Origin: Paenibacillus ihbetae
GTDB lineage: Bacteria > Bacillota > Bacilli > Paenibacillales > Paenibacillaceae
Assembly (NCBI RefSeq): GCF_002741055.1
Contig: NZ_CP016809.1
Location: 4,380,501-4,444,500, forward strand
Direction: 5' to 3'
DNA length: 64,000 nt
This document shows, in pieces, positions 7,575-12,478 of the stretch; the first letter of the stretch is position 1; the number at the start of each line of letters is the position of its first letter. The notes beneath the pieces were generated by a model, which was not told the origin of the DNA, did not search any database, and saw nothing but the letters and a program-made list of their open reading frames with translations. A program made the translations under genes and the position numbers.

Positions 7575-8102
7575 ATGGAGCAAGAGTGGAAGCCGGATGC
7601 GCAGAAGGAAGGAGCGCTGTCCTTCCGGCTGATGACGCTAGAGGATATTCCGGATGTTCTTGCGGTGGAGCACGAGGCTTTTTCGGTGCCCTGGACGGAA
7701 GAAGCATTTCGCAATGAGTTGAAGCTGAATCATTTTGCACATTATATGGTAATGGAATACGAAGGACGCTTAATCGGTTATGCAGGGATGTGGACCATTG
7801 TCGACGAAGCCCACGTGACCAATATCGCAGTGCTCGAAGCCTATCGCGGACGGAAGTGGGGGGAACGGCTGCTCAGCGAGCTGATGAAAACGGCGGCATT
7901 TATGGGAATGGAGAAAATGACGCTGGAGGTCCGTATATCCAACCACGTCGCTCAGCGCTTATATATAAAAAAAGGCTTTAAGCCCGCCGGCGTGCGCAAG
8001 GGCTATTATTCGGACAATCAGGAGGACGCGCTGATTATGTGGGCGGATCTGCCTCCCTATCGGGGGGACGAAGGCATGGAAGGAAGTCATAAACAGTCAT
8101 GA
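7575..8102 (+). CDS. rimI: Ribosomal protein S18-alanine N-acetyltransferase RimI
   Basis: GNAT-fold acetyltransferase, 175 residues. The acetyl-CoA loop is [18 protein letters not shown] and the family sequence [19 protein letters not shown] follows; the C-terminal [14 protein letters not shown] is typical of RimI. A longer frame from GTG 7554 exists, but AGGAGG at 7562-7567 is 7 nt from the ATG at 7575, so 7575 is chosen. The first 20 residues are poorly conserved extension. Overlaps tsaD by 4 bp. Confidence 0.93.
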
Positions 8103-9142
8103 TAGATGAAAGAATAGATCGGGAGCACAGCTGTATCTTGGCTATTGAAACGAGCTGTGACGAAACCTCGGTTGCGGTCGTGAGGGATGGGTACGAGGTG
8201 CTCTCGAGCGTCATTGCAAGCCAGATCGAAACACACAAAGCTTTTGGCGGCGTAGTGCCCGAAGTGGCCTCAAGGAAGCATGTCGAGAGCATCACGATGA
8301 TCATTGAACAGGCGGTGGAAGAGGCCGGAATCGAGATGAAGGACATATCGGCCGTCGCGGTCACCCAGGGTCCCGGCCTGGTCGGGGCGCTGCTGGTCGG
8401 TGTTATGGCAGCGAAGAGCCTGGCTTTTGCGCTGGGCAAGCCGCTTATCGGCACGCATCATATAGCCGGGCATATTTATGCCAACCGGTTCGTTGGGGAC
8501 ATTGAGTACCCCAGCATGGCTCTGGTCGTATCCGGCGGTCACACGGAGCTTGTTCTTATGAAGGAGGAGGGAAGCTTCGAGCTGATCGGCAGGACGCGGG
8601 ACGATGCGGTCGGCGAGGCGTACGACAAGGTTGCGCGAGCTCTCGGCTTCCCATACCCCGGCGGGCCCCATGTGGATCGAATGGCGCTGGAGGCGCTGGA
8701 GTCCATCGAATTGCCGCGGGTCTGGCTGGAACCGGACAGCTACGACTTCAGCTTCAGCGGGTTGAAGTCGGCCGTATTGAATGTTGTCAACCAGAGTAAA
8801 ATGCGCGGCGAGGACGTCCGGATCGAAGCCATTGCCCGCGGCTTCCAGGAGTCCGTGGTGGAAGTGCTCGTTGAGAAGGCGGTTCGTGCCGTCAAGGAGT
8901 ATGGTGCGAAGCAGCTTCTCTTATGCGGCGGCGTTGCAGCCAACAGGGGTCTTCGCAGCGCGTTGACCGAGCGTTGTCAGGCCGAAGGCATCCGGCTGAC
9001 GATACCGCCGTTCCAATATTGCACGGACAATGGCGCGATGATCGCAGCGGCGGCTCATTTAAAGTGGAAGCAGGGCAGCTTTACGCCGCTGGACATGAAG
9101 GCCGATCCGCAATTGCCGTTGGAGGAGTGGGCAAGGCTTTAA
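8099..9142 (+). CDS. tsaD: tRNA N6-adenosine threonylcarbamoyltransferase TsaD (Gcp)
   Basis: 347 residues, full length. [16 protein letters not shown] opens the ASKHA fold; the metal-binding HIAGH (His121, His125) and the [13 protein letters not shown] and SFSGLKSAV signatures are all present, as is the C-terminal CTDNGAMIA. TsaD transfers the threonylcarbamoyl group to tRNA A37. Last gene of the operon, followed by a terminator hairpin. B. subtilis equivalent is ydiE/gcp. Confidence 0.97.
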
Positions 9143-9192
9143 GCCGTCCACGGTCCTGTTCGGCGGGAGGGAAAGCAACCAACATGAACTAT

Positions 9193-9234
9193 AGAGCCTT
9201 TCGTCTCTGTTAAAAGGGACGGCAGGCTCTTTTG
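9193..9234 (+). terminator. Intrinsic terminator after tsaD
   Basis: AGAGCCT (9193-9199) pairs with AGGCTCT (9224-9230), with an inner GTCTC/GGGAC partial pairing, then TTTT. Confidence 0.75.
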
Positions 9235-9348
9235 CTATGATTCGGAATTGCTTGTGAACTTGTCGTCGGCCGGGATTTATCAGCGCTCGCGGTAGTTTTG
9301 TGTGATGTTGGGGAAGATGCAGGTAATGCAGGTAATGCTGTTGTTGCT

Positions 9349-9456
9349 GGTATTGGTGGTATTGGTGGTATTACTGGTATTGCGGGTATTGCGGGTATTG
9401 CGGGTATTACTGGTATTGCTGGTACTACTGATATTGCTTGTACTACTGATATTGCT
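9349..9456 (+). repeat. Degenerate 9-bp tandem array, 12 units
   Basis: Twelve contiguous 9-mers of the form GGTATTRCK (for example GGTATTGCG three times in a row, GGTATTACT twice), decaying to GATATTGCT and TGTACTACT at the right end. Period is a multiple of three, so all three forward frames stay open. Confidence 0.9.
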
Positions 9457-9666
9457 GGTATCTATGTTGCAGATGTTGTTGAGTTGATGTTGTCTAGTTA
9501 GCGATGTTGCAGATCTTGTTGAGTTGTTACGATGCTGCTGATGTGGCGGCTCTGTTGACTTTGCTGATGGCGATGAGGTGGCGGCTGTGTTAATGACGTG
9601 AATATGTTGTTTAAATGAATAATGGAGCTGTGAGCGTAATCGTGATTGTGAGAAGGTTGCTAGGTT

Positions 9667-9743
9667 TGAGTATGAGTATGAGTATGAGTATGAGTATGAG
9701 TATGAGTATGAGTATGAGTATGAGTATGAGTATGAGTATGAGT
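9667..9743 (+). repeat. TGAGTA hexanucleotide microsatellite, 12 perfect copies
   Basis: TGAGTA repeats exactly 12 times from 9667 to 9738, then a partial copy TGAGT. Perfect copies suggest recent slippage and a likely variable-number locus. Confidence 0.95.
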
Positions 9744-9762
9744 TATGGAGCATGAGTGACAG

Positions 9763-9791
9763 TAGGAATAGGAATAGGAATAGGAATAGGA
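9763..9791 (+). repeat. TAGGAA hexanucleotide microsatellite, 4 copies
   Basis: TAGGAA four times (9763-9786) plus a partial fifth, 20 bp after the TGAGTA array. Confidence 0.9.
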
Positions 9792-9942
9792 GTTAAGGAG
9801 CGGCGGATTGTCTGCTCCATGCTGGTGTGGACCTGCATCACGCAATTGCTCCCAACAGCGATGGGCTATTGCATGATGGAATCTGTTCCATTTTTACGTA
9901 GAGGAGTATCTTCGCGATTGTGAAATTTGCATCCTGTCAAGT

Positions 9943-10202
9943 TGTGAACAAAGTTATCCACATATCCGGTGGAAAATGTGAATAAGTAAGAAAAATGTCG
10001 ATATACCGGACCTCTGAAAGAGAATGAAATAAGGGGACATGTTTTTCATTTTTTTCGGTGGAATCTGTGGATAATGTGCATAACTTAGTGGATAATGTTG
10101 GATATCGGGCTGCAGAGGCGAGGATAACAACAAAAAAATGGCCGTTTCGGCCATTTTTAAGTTTGACTTATGCACTAATTTTGGGGATAAGTTTGTGAAT
10201 AA
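9943..10202. promoter_or_regulatory. DnaA-box cluster
   Basis: Five perfect matches to TTATNCACA (either strand): 9954-9962 (TTATCCACA, plus), 9977-9985 (TGTGAATAA), 10066-10074 (TGTGGATAA), 10075-10083 (TGTGCATAA) and 10194-10202 (TGTGAATAA). One-mismatch sites lie at 9943-9951, 10087-10095, 10168-10176 and 10182-10190. Two perfect sites abut head-to-tail. No dnaA, dnaN or oriC-type gene is near, so a DnaA titration or regulatory site is more likely than an origin. Confidence 0.75.
10134..10158. terminator. Bidirectional terminator-like hairpin
   Basis: AAAAATGGCC (10134-10143), loop GTTTC, GGCCATTTTT (10149-10158). A/T runs on both sides allow use on either strand; the ABC-F gene ends about 190 bp away. 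It lies within the DnaA-box cluster. Confidence 0.6.
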
Positions 10203-10351
10203 ATCCAATCCCGCATTTGAAACGAATTTGTGAATTTTTTTGGAATGCCATAAATAGGTTTAGGAGAAGCTTGGCGCCGATGTCGATTCGACATCGATTT
10301 GCCCGGGCAAAACCATTCCATCCCGTCCCCGGTCAATCCTGTCTGGCGACT

Positions 10352-12304
10352 TTAATCTTCCAAGAGAGCTTCCCATTCGGCAAAGATTTGATCAAGCTGC
10401 GCCTTCTTCTCGTCGAGGGACTGCTGCCGCTCCTGAAGCGCCATGTAATCCTGATAAATCTCAGGCTGCGCCATTTCTTCCTCCAACGCGGCAATCTCGG
10501 CTTCAAGGGTGTGAATCTGCTCCTCCAGGCTCGCCAGCTTGCGCTGCCGATTCCGTTCCTCGCGCTTGGCCTGCTTCTCGGCTTCGAAGGAAAGGGCTCC
10601 TTGCTTCTCAACCGGGGACTCCTGCTTGGCCTGAGGCTTTATAGCATGCCGGGCGAATGGCTCGGACGGTTCATCGTCCATATCCAGAATCTCCTGCTTT
10701 TTCTCTGTATAATCGTCATAATTACCCAGGAAATGTTGAATACCGTCCGGATGAAGCTCGATGATCCGTTCCGCCATTTTGTTAAGGAAGTAGCGGTCAT
10801 GGGAAATGAACAGCAGCGTTCCCTCATAATCAATTAGTGCCGATTCGAGCACCTCTTTGCTGAACAAATCCAAATGGTTGGTCGGCTCGTCGAGAATAAG
10901 CATATTGGCTTCAAGCAGCATCAGCTTGGCGAGCGACACGCGTGCTTTCTCGCCGCCGCTTAAGGAGCTGATTTTCTTGAGTACATCCTCGCCGCTGAAC
11001 AGAAAATTGCCGAGAACGGTGCGAATACGGGCTTCCTCCATATGCGGATAGGCGCTCCACAGTTCCTCAAGCACGGTATTGCTTGGATTAAGCTCCGATT
11101 GCTCCTGGTCATAGTAACCGATCTTTACCTTGGTCCCCCATTGCAGCGATCCGGCAGTCGGCTTCATCGTTCCGATCAGGCATTTCAGGAGCGTAGACTT
11201 GCCGACCCCGTTCGGACCGATCAATGCAACCGTCTCCCCGCGATGCAGATCGAAGGACGCATGCTCGAATAATGGCTTGCCCGGCTCGAAAGCGACCGAC
11301 AAGTCCCGAACCTGCAGCACGTCTTTCCCGGACATATATTCAGGCTCAAAGGAAAAATGGGCTTTTTTCAAATCCCCCATTGGCTTGTCCAGACGTTCCA
11401 TCTTCTCCAGCGCTTTGCGCCGGCTTTGCGCCCGCTTGGTCGTTGATGCCCGGACGAGATTGCGCTGGATAAAGGTTTCCATGCGCGCAATTTCCTCCTG
11501 CTGCTTCTCATATTGCTTCAGCTGGGATTCGTATTCAGCAGCCTTCAGCTCGATATAGCGGCTGTAATTGCCCGTATATTTCTTGGAATGGCGGCGTTCG
11601 ATTTCGACAATGGTCGTAACGAGCCGATCCAGGAAGTACCGGTCGTGGGATACGACCAGCAGCGATCCAGAATAACCGCGAAGGTAATCTTCGAGCCAGG
11701 TCAGGGTGGCGATGTCCAGATGGTTCGTCGGTTCGTCGAGCATGAGCAGATCGGGCGCCTGCAGCAGTATTTTTGCGAGAGCAAGCCTTGTTTTCTGGCC
11801 GCCGCTTAAAGTAGAGATGGGCGTATCCGGGGAGAAGCTGCCAAAGCCCATCCCGTGAAGCACGCTTCGGATTCGCGTTTCGATTTCGTACCCGCCTTGA
11901 TCCTTGAACCAGTCGGAACGGATCGCATAACGGTCCAACAGCTCTTGGTATTTCTTCGGATCCTCGCTCGATTTCGGATCAGCGATTTGTTCTTCCATCG
12001 TACGCAGCTCGCGCTCGGTCTCAAGCAGCGGTGCGAACACGTCGAGCATTTCATTCCAAATGGTCCGGTCCGATTGTAGACCGCTGTTCTGCGCAAGATA
12101 GCCGATCGTCGTTTCCTTGGCTTTGAAGATCTGGCCTCCGTCGTAGGACATTTCGCCCGCCAAAATTTTCAGCAGGGTGGATTTGCCGGCTCCGTTCACG
12201 CCGACCAGCCCGATGCGTTCGCGCTCCAGCACTTGCAGATTAATTCCTTCAAGCACCGGGGTTACTCCATATAATTTCGTTATGCCATTGGCCTGCAGCA
12301 GCAT
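10352..12304 (-). CDS. ABC-F family ATPase (YdiF-like ribosome-associated)
   Basis: 650 residues with two ABC cassettes and no membrane segments, the ABC-F layout. First Walker A GVNGAGKST at residues 35-43 and signature LSGGQKTRLALAKILL; second Walker A GPNGVGKST and LSGGEKARVSLAKLML; both Walker B end in LDEPTNHLD. The linker between cassettes is long and charged and the C-terminus is a coiled coil rich in Glu/Lys. ABC-F proteins act on the ribosomal E site in translation or antibiotic protection. The frame extends to 12388, but GGAGGT 9 nt before the ATG at 12304 fixes the start. Position next to tsaD matches B. subtilis ydiF. Confidence 0.9.
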   Translation of the reverse strand: MLLQANGITKLYGVTPVLEGINLQVLERERIGLVGVNGAGKSTLLKILAGEMSYDGGQIFKAKETTIGYLAQNSGLQSDRTIWNEMLDVFAPLLETERELRTMEEQIADPKSSEDPKKYQELLDRYAIRSDWFKDQGGYEIETRIRSVLHGMGFGSFSPDTPISTLSGGQKTRLALAKILLQAPDLLMLDEPTNHLDIATLTWLEDYLRGYSGSLLVVSHDRYFLDRLVTTIVEIERRHSKKYTGNYSRYIELKAAEYESQLKQYEKQQEEIARMETFIQRNLVRASTTKRAQSRRKALEKMERLDKPMGDLKKAHFSFEPEYMSGKDVLQVRDLSVAFEPGKPLFEHASFDLHRGETVALIGPNGVGKSTLLKCLIGTMKPTAGSLQWGTKVKIGYYDQEQSELNPSNTVLEELWSAYPHMEEARIRTVLGNFLFSGEDVLKKISSLSGGEKARVSLAKLMLLEANMLILDEPTNHLDLFSKEVLESALIDYEGTLLFISHDRYFLNKMAERIIELHPDGIQHFLGNYDDYTEKKQEILDMDDEPSEPFARHAIKPQAKQESPVEKQGALSFEAEKQAKREERNRQRKLASLEEQIHTLEAEIAALEEEMAQPEIYQDYMALQERQQSLDEKKAQLDQIFAEWEALLED

Positions 12305-12478
12305 AGATGTGAAACCTCCATCAATCGATATACTTCTTTTAAGAAATGGTTCGTAATACAGTAAGTTTACCTGAAAACGGTGGAACAATCGACCTTGATA
12401 TTGACTTTGCGTCTTTCTTGGCTAAAGGGAGGAACAGTGGTAAACTAGTCTTAATTAAACGTGAGAGGAAGAATCACG

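Follow-up and report, generated by a model that had tools for sequence, protein, structure and literature searches.

What does a dense group of DnaA boxes do in non-coding DNA between tsaD (gcp) and an ABC-F ATPase gene, far from the replication origin? We address this question for a site in a Paenibacillus genome that lies in the window, by which we mean the whole 64-kb stretch of DNA analysed here (C1:4380501-4444500 of its own genome). Our best reading, to which we assign a probability of about 0.74, is that the site is a co-oriented and partly phased array that assembles ATP-DnaA, titrates DnaA and delays initiation. The retention of this layout in many relatives suggests an old control element for replication timing. 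The site belongs to a known kind; what is new is its widely conserved, mostly one-way and phased layout.

Box content and density of the cluster

Scoring the window with the DnaA box motif TTATNCACA, and with the same motif read backwards as a control, we found five perfect and four one-mismatch boxes at 9943-10202, and these five are the only perfect boxes in the 64 kb. The initial annotation had described the same nine boxes, two of them abutting, and a recount from the sequence found each of them in its place. It had also placed the cluster beside tsaD. The cluster does occupy the gap between tsaD and the ABC-F gene, but it is nearer to the latter, 150 bp from its stop as against about 800 bp to tsaD. 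Since tsaD is on the plus strand and the ABC-F gene on the minus strand, the cluster is downstream of both. The parts of the element and its neighbours are listed below in window coordinates; the counts refer to 55 elements (54 from relatives plus that of the window) anchored on the best abutting pair, and the offsets are given relative to that pair.

8099..9142, plus strand: tsaD (gcp), the upstream neighbour (TIGR03723, 436 bits, cut-off 296.1)
9935..9941, left of the cluster: TGTCAAG, a word unrelated to the DnaA box but highly conserved in Paenibacillus elements (Paenibacillus consensus -131 to -125, 85% or more of the 15 representatives)
9943..9951, minus strand: one-mismatch DnaA box TTGTTCACA; 21 of the 55 elements have a box at -124/-123 with no more than one mismatch
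9954..9962, plus strand (that of tsaD): perfect DnaA box followed by ATATC; 47 of the 55 have it at -112/-113 relative to the central pair, 45 of them in perfect form
9977..9985, minus strand: perfect DnaA box; 46 of the 55 have it at -89/-90 with no more than one mismatch, 11 of them in perfect form
10066..10074, minus strand: left box of the central abutting pair, perfect in the window; all 55 elements have it with no more than one mismatch, 47 of them in perfect form; anchor of the elements
10075..10083, minus strand: right box of the central abutting pair, perfect in the window; all 55 elements have it with no more than one mismatch, 40 of them in perfect form; anchor of the elements
10087..10095, minus strand: third central box, imperfect, nGTGGATAA; at +21, one mismatch in 54 of 55, perfect in 0
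10134..10158, minus strand: hairpin and T-run within the cluster, resembling a terminator of the ABC-F gene; stem of 11 pairs, loop of 3
10168..10176, plus strand: one-mismatch DnaA box; at +101/+102 in 19 of 55
10182..10190, minus strand: one-mismatch DnaA box of the right pair; box at +115/+116 in 25 of 55
10194..10202, minus strand: perfect DnaA box of the right pair, 12 bp from its partner; 19 of the 55 have a box at +127/+128
10352..12388, minus strand: ABC-F ATPase gene, ydiF orthologue by position (NF000355, 510.3 bits, cut-off 380)

The start codon of the ABC-F gene probably lies further in than 12388. Two terminator-like sites were found in the region where 0.9 would be expected, which is modest evidence, and a search of 9100-10500 returned no Rfam family at its gathering score. 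The gap between the two genes measures 1209 bp in the window and 730 bp in P. lactis (L009). Three tandem-repeat arrays occupy its part between tsaD and the cluster, at 9318-9461, 9667-9757 and 9763-9791, with units of 9, 6 and 6 bp in 16, 14.8 and 4.8 copies, respectively.

The whole genome (6,593,819 bp in one contig) contains 154 perfect boxes (70 + 84) and 99 copies of the reversed motif (47 + 52). From the full lists of their positions we counted the stretches of at most 300 bp that hold at least three perfect boxes and found five in total:

C1:4390454-4390702: 5 perfect boxes, the span of the cluster under study
C1:3215524-3215742: 5 perfect boxes, upstream of dnaA
C1:3119467-3119636: 4 perfect boxes
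C1:4062353-4062431: 3 perfect boxes
C1:4272457-4272556: 3 perfect boxes

The initial annotation had named a box density at the level of the genome background as the outcome that would speak against it. The density is above that level: only the stretch upstream of dnaA also packs five perfect boxes into 300 bp and so matches the cluster. What is found here, several consensus boxes in a short non-coding stretch outside oriC, is one mark of a DnaA-box cluster (DBC) of the B. subtilis type.

The three smaller stretches lie elsewhere. The four boxes at C1:3119467-3119636 (L179:3968-4137) fall within 170 bp at the start of a tadA-like gene, so named from its sequence, about 95 kb from dnaA and outside the window, with three of them before the open frame used and one inside it. 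A match to this gene was present in 28 of 30 family genomes searched, and in 24 of the 28 the 500 bp preceding it contain two or more perfect boxes; in all, these upstream regions hold 70 perfect boxes and 4 reversed motifs. This cluster is not among the eight strong B. subtilis regions in Table 1 of PMC4447404, as far as the excerpt of that paper extends. The boxes at C1:4062353-4062431 (L181:3854-3932) and at C1:4272457-4272556 (L182:3958-4057), three in 79 bp and three in 100 bp, are apparently intergenic.

Orthology with the gcp-ydiF cluster of B. subtilis

One genome in our collection, G163 (loci L187 and L214), we take to be B. subtilis 168; its Rex is identical at all 215 residues to PDB 2vt2, which we presume to be the B. 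subtilis protein. Around tsaD its gene order, with names read from the sequences, is tsaE-tsaB-rimI-tsaD-ABC-F-moaC-rex-tatC. The window has tsaE-tsaB-rimI-tsaD, the cluster, the ABC-F gene, a folate cyclo-ligase gene, moaC and later tatA-tatC, where the tsaE, moaC and tat names were again read from the sequences. The folate cyclo-ligase gene between ABC-F and moaC is the one additional gene in the window, and the ABC-F gene occupies the same place as the gene after gcp in L214. Because the two gene orders are nearly identical, we regard the window cluster as the orthologous cluster, in the place between tsaD and the ABC-F gene ydiF that marks this DBC in B. subtilis.

The papers cited here by PMC number are drawn on through excerpts. 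According to PMC4447404, the region "downstream of gcp; downstream of ydiF" is region 4 of the top 20 regions bound by B. subtilis DnaA in vitro. It has 10 sites and a Kd of 0.15 uM for ATP-DnaA and 0.33 uM for ADP-DnaA, and at 55 nM ATP-DnaA recovers 16-fold more of its DNA; the eight strongest regions were readily detected in vivo. The initial annotation's suggestion of a B. subtilis DnaA-box cluster near gcp was thus correct. For the B. subtilis cluster DnaA binding is published (PMC4447404); for the Paenibacillus site it is predicted from the sequence and by analogy with the orthologue.

The likeness extends beyond the place and the presence of several boxes outside oriC. The B. subtilis gap (L187) also has a plus-strand box followed by ATATC, an abutting minus-strand pair and more minus-strand boxes, and TTATCCACATATC, found with the plus-strand box at 9954, recurs there. 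The two clusters differ in their details. The abutting pair carries one mismatch in L187 and is perfect in the window; the distance from the plus-strand box to the pair is 89 bp in six Bacillus loci, that of B. subtilis among them, as against 112 bp in the window (only loci read in the right direction entered this comparison); and a weak third box, 12 bp beyond the second one of the pair, sets the window apart from the B. subtilis cluster.

Conservation in Paenibacillus and close genera

Among 80 loci of relatives, the ABC-F gene follows tsaD within the locus in 54 and is not seen there in 26. All 54 carry two to six perfect boxes in the gap. Across the 55 elements, the best abutting pair has 0, 1 and 2 mismatches in 33, 21 and 1 cases, is surrounded by two to five perfect boxes and is followed by the ABC-F stop at a distance of 156-607 bp (median 228). 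The third central box is present in 54 of the 55 and imperfect in all 54, and the right-hand boxes are looser in position than the left and central ones. To gauge conservation we used the 35 elements with a plus-strand box at -112, cut to 15 representatives at 75% identity. The consensus frequency in these was 0.904 in the two box blocks that played no part in selection and 0.578 in non-box columns; it was 0.956 in the blocks used for anchoring or selection, and an earlier value of 0.935 for box columns was inflated because the pair and the plus-strand box had served to anchor and select the elements.

Many Paenibacillus loci have at least 2 kb between tsaD and the cluster, and in one of them (L011:5914-7197) this interval includes a gene that resembles 2-isopropylmalate synthase, as read from its sequence. 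Even where the separation reaches about 2.3 kb or more, as in many species, the cluster remains next to the ABC-F gene. From the 26 loci without an ABC-F gene in range, 22 were chosen for a genome-wide search and 21 genomes were searched. An abutting pair with at most one mismatch was present in 20 of the 21, and in 16 of the 21 the 3' end of an ABC-F gene (68-85% identity) was no more than about 0.6 kb away from the pair. Genomes G208 and G198 show a similar box spacing, the ABC-F gene being absent from the 3-kb locus, and in G197, G200 and G204 we saw no such place next to an ABC-F gene, with one G200 match left out of consideration. We therefore reject a strict anchoring to tsaD for the window's family, in which the cluster follows the ABC-F gene when other DNA intervenes.

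Conservation across the class

All 161 genomes of a draw from the class (41 families, 84 genera) carry tsaD. We read 90 of them, from 36 families, downstream of this gene, 30 chosen by best score and 60 picked to spread over families before any boxes were seen, and all 90 are in the counts. Counting boxes at the same place across the class, much as the initial annotation had proposed for other Bacillales, gave 190 perfect boxes and 2 reversed motifs in the 400 bp after tsaD; 200 first-order Markov simulations of the same windows gave a mean of 2.1 boxes and a maximum of 7. At least two boxes were present in 53 of the 90 genomes and at least three in 42, and 25 of the 36 families have a genome with two or more. 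The further proposal that the site is kept together with its gene neighbour across families holds for these 25 families and for the window's own, with two amendments: in the window's family the neighbour is the ABC-F gene rather than tsaD when other DNA intervenes, and in nine families (f4, f15, f17, f20, f25, f30, f31, f33 and f35) the genomes read had no cluster directly after tsaD, some of these loci reaching only about 1.4 kb downstream.

Fewer than two perfect boxes were found in 37 of the 90 genomes. Eight of these belong to the window's family, in which the first 400 bp hold 0-1 boxes because the cluster lies further on; all eight carry two to four boxes beyond. A genome of family f34 has five boxes at 845-1020 bp. 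The nine families and the 37 genomes indicate that such a cluster is not indispensable in the class.

Two stricter descriptions of the site did not survive this comparison. The exact abutting pair is not unique to it, since it occurs in 54 of the 161 class genomes (68 matches, none for the reversed control), at least 22 of which have it no more than 5 kb from tsaD. Among 20 other places of the pair, one is at tsaD (L261) and three (L246, L247 and L255) are in stretches with more than ten boxes. Nor do genes always converge on the cluster. They do so in the window and in B. subtilis, but by a crude count of the longest following open frame the next gene runs in the direction of tsaD in 30 of the 53 class genomes with at least two boxes. 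At six loci (L128, L119, L143, L165, L147 and L155) a long, membrane-protein-like open frame in this direction comes after the cluster, with the boxes preceding it, and stands before the ABC-F gene where that gene is seen. We found no paper that describes either conservation beyond B. subtilis or helical phasing of this site, which is weak evidence of novelty, most subscription papers having been outside the search.

Orientation and helical phasing

The boxes downstream of tsaD are strongly biased in orientation, with 152 of the 190 pointing against tsaD and 38 with it (binomial p ~2e-17, where boxes within a genome are not independent). Same-strand spacings of 9, 12, 22, 31, 42-43, 51-52, 63-64 and 73-74 bp are frequent, and many are common to several families; spacings of 54, 78 and 86 bp, which agree less closely with the DNA turn, are found repeatedly as well. 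For family-collapsed distances of 9-110 bp between minus-strand boxes (n = 116, 49 genomes, 25 families), the resultant R was 0.558 at a period of 10.70 bp. None of 500 runs in which boxes were re-placed inside each span reached this value (mean 0.149, maximum 0.302), a null that takes box placement within a genome as independent. Shared ancestry was handled by this family collapse, by taking one genome per family (mean 0.514 vs 0.206 for the null, 0 of 200 runs) and by counting distinct nearest-neighbour distances once (R 0.482 at 10.80 bp, n = 29, a figure given without a null). Opposite-strand pairs gave 0.626 at 10.60 bp (n = 51, likewise without a null). Such phased spacings mean that the boxes tend to share a face of the helix. 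In Paenibacillus the phasing is only partial: spacings of 9 and 107 bp agree with the turn, and the one of 89 bp is not a whole number of turns.

Phasing together with polarity is what cooperative DnaA assembly would need. B. subtilis incC offers a direct precedent, for its distal, movable box shows helical phasing and works best on the same helical face (excerpt of PMC6669920). It differs from the window site in being part of oriC and in carrying DnaA-trios, whereas the window site is 1.17 Mb from dnaA.

A model for the cluster, and its alternatives

How the layout acts we infer as follows. The Paenibacillus orthologue of the gcp-ydiF cluster, non-coding, far from the origin and not a promoter in its own genome, would serve as a platform on which several DnaA molecules assemble, anchored by the strong boxes (the abutting pair and the flanking perfect boxes). 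This complex would draw ATP-DnaA away from oriC. Because the cluster is duplicated about one third of the way along the chromosome arm, titration capacity would rise some time after initiation and the next round would be delayed. The published preference of the locus for ATP-DnaA is in line with an arrangement of strong anchors and weak neighbours in a common orientation.

The deletion of six B. subtilis clusters was reportedly first described in Okumura 2012. Their joint loss leads to early initiation, according to the excerpts of PMC13220808 and PMC5295017, and titration by the gcp-ydiF site singly is not proven even in B. subtilis. The distance from tsaD to dnaA has a median of 0.31 of the arm and falls within 0.15-0.45 in 29 of 35 genomes (0.36 in the window genome, 0.30 in G163). 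These 35 are what was used of 39 genomes taken, four in several contigs (G013, G034, G137 and G148) having been dropped; lengths were partly rounded, and the position is that of tsaD whether the cluster is present or absent. This position is compatible with a role in dosage, but also with plain conservation of gene order. A roughly 10-fold overproduction of DnaA in B. subtilis gave no over-initiation (PMC13220808, in excerpt), a result that counts against simple titration. The function of datA and DARS in E. coli is harmed when transcription passes through them (PMC5010248, in excerpt), and by analogy such harm might explain a site between convergent 3' ends with a terminator-like hairpin; the 30 of 53 class genomes in which the following frame runs in the direction of tsaD indicate that shielding from transcription is not general.

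Could the array do more than titrate? The phased, one-way boxes could arrange DnaA into a multimer that, through its geometry, sets off hydrolysis of ATP or exchange of the bound nucleotide, an alternative that we consider unlikely. We hold with equal reserve its broader form, in which an ancient, vertically kept element of the Bacilli is an ATP-DnaA-specific nucleoprotein machine and the missing counterpart of datA/DARS, not a passive sink. The geometry, orientation bias and phasing exceed the needs of passive titration, and the third central box is kept yet imperfect in every element that has it. Among the eight high-affinity regions of PMC4447404, the gcp-ydiF site and sda have the largest ATP/ADP differences, and a 2026 review (PMC13220808, in excerpt) treats it as an unanswered question whether B. 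subtilis has regulators that balance ATP- and ADP-DnaA. The same excerpt, however, states that IHF, Hda, datA and DARS are absent in B. subtilis, and regulators there act on oligomerisation, with hydrolysis unaffected by Soj and YabA (PMC5295017, likewise in excerpt). E. coli datA resembles the cluster in being a non-coding group of DnaA boxes away from oriC with a negative effect on initiation, and cells that lose it over-initiate, much as B. subtilis initiates early when its clusters are lost together (PMC13220808, PMC5295017); datA differs in working with IHF (PMC5295017), the factor that B. subtilis lacks (PMC13220808). DARS1 and DARS2 of E. coli are likewise non-coding DnaA-binding control sites at a conserved relative distance to oriC, but they reactivate DnaA, whereas the B. 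subtilis clusters act negatively.

Other uses of the boxes are harder to reconcile with the data. At several other clusters of B. subtilis, DnaA acts as a repressor or an activator of genes (PMC4447404, in excerpt), and both the terminator-like hairpin inside the cluster and the boxes that precede the following frame in 30 of 53 class genomes would suit a site through which DnaA regulates tsaD, the ABC-F gene or termination between them. We judge this improbable, as the cluster lies beyond the 3' ends of both genes, in the window as in B. subtilis, and neither gcp nor ydiF is among the DnaA-regulated genes in the excerpted introduction of PMC4447404; a promoter function in the window is rejected, with one promoter-like match where 3.2 are expected. 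It is more doubtful still, to the point of being hard to credit, that the site is a second or fossil replication origin. It has as many perfect boxes as the stretch upstream of dnaA over a similar length, but it is not adjacent to dnaA: the gene (C1:3214049-3215356) and its box cluster are 1.17 Mb away from a site that begins at C1:4390454. The genome's own dnaA region (L180 2300-4600) has no abutting pair at up to three mismatches, so the cluster is not a plain copy of oriC. An accidental grouping of boxes in AT-rich intergenic DNA, finally, is already refuted by the genome-wide density, by the reversed motif (2 vs 190), by Markov simulations that gave at most 7 boxes and by positions conserved over many species.

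We thus favor the reading in which the cluster assembles ATP-DnaA and, by titration, delays initiation. That the layout, orientation and helical phase included, has been kept over 25 of the 36 families read speaks for selection on a specific DnaA assembly at the site. The layout also supplies a precise and testable design, in which boxes and phase are specified, for the question raised in the excerpt of PMC13220808 of whether these bacteria have regulators that balance ATP- and ADP-DnaA.
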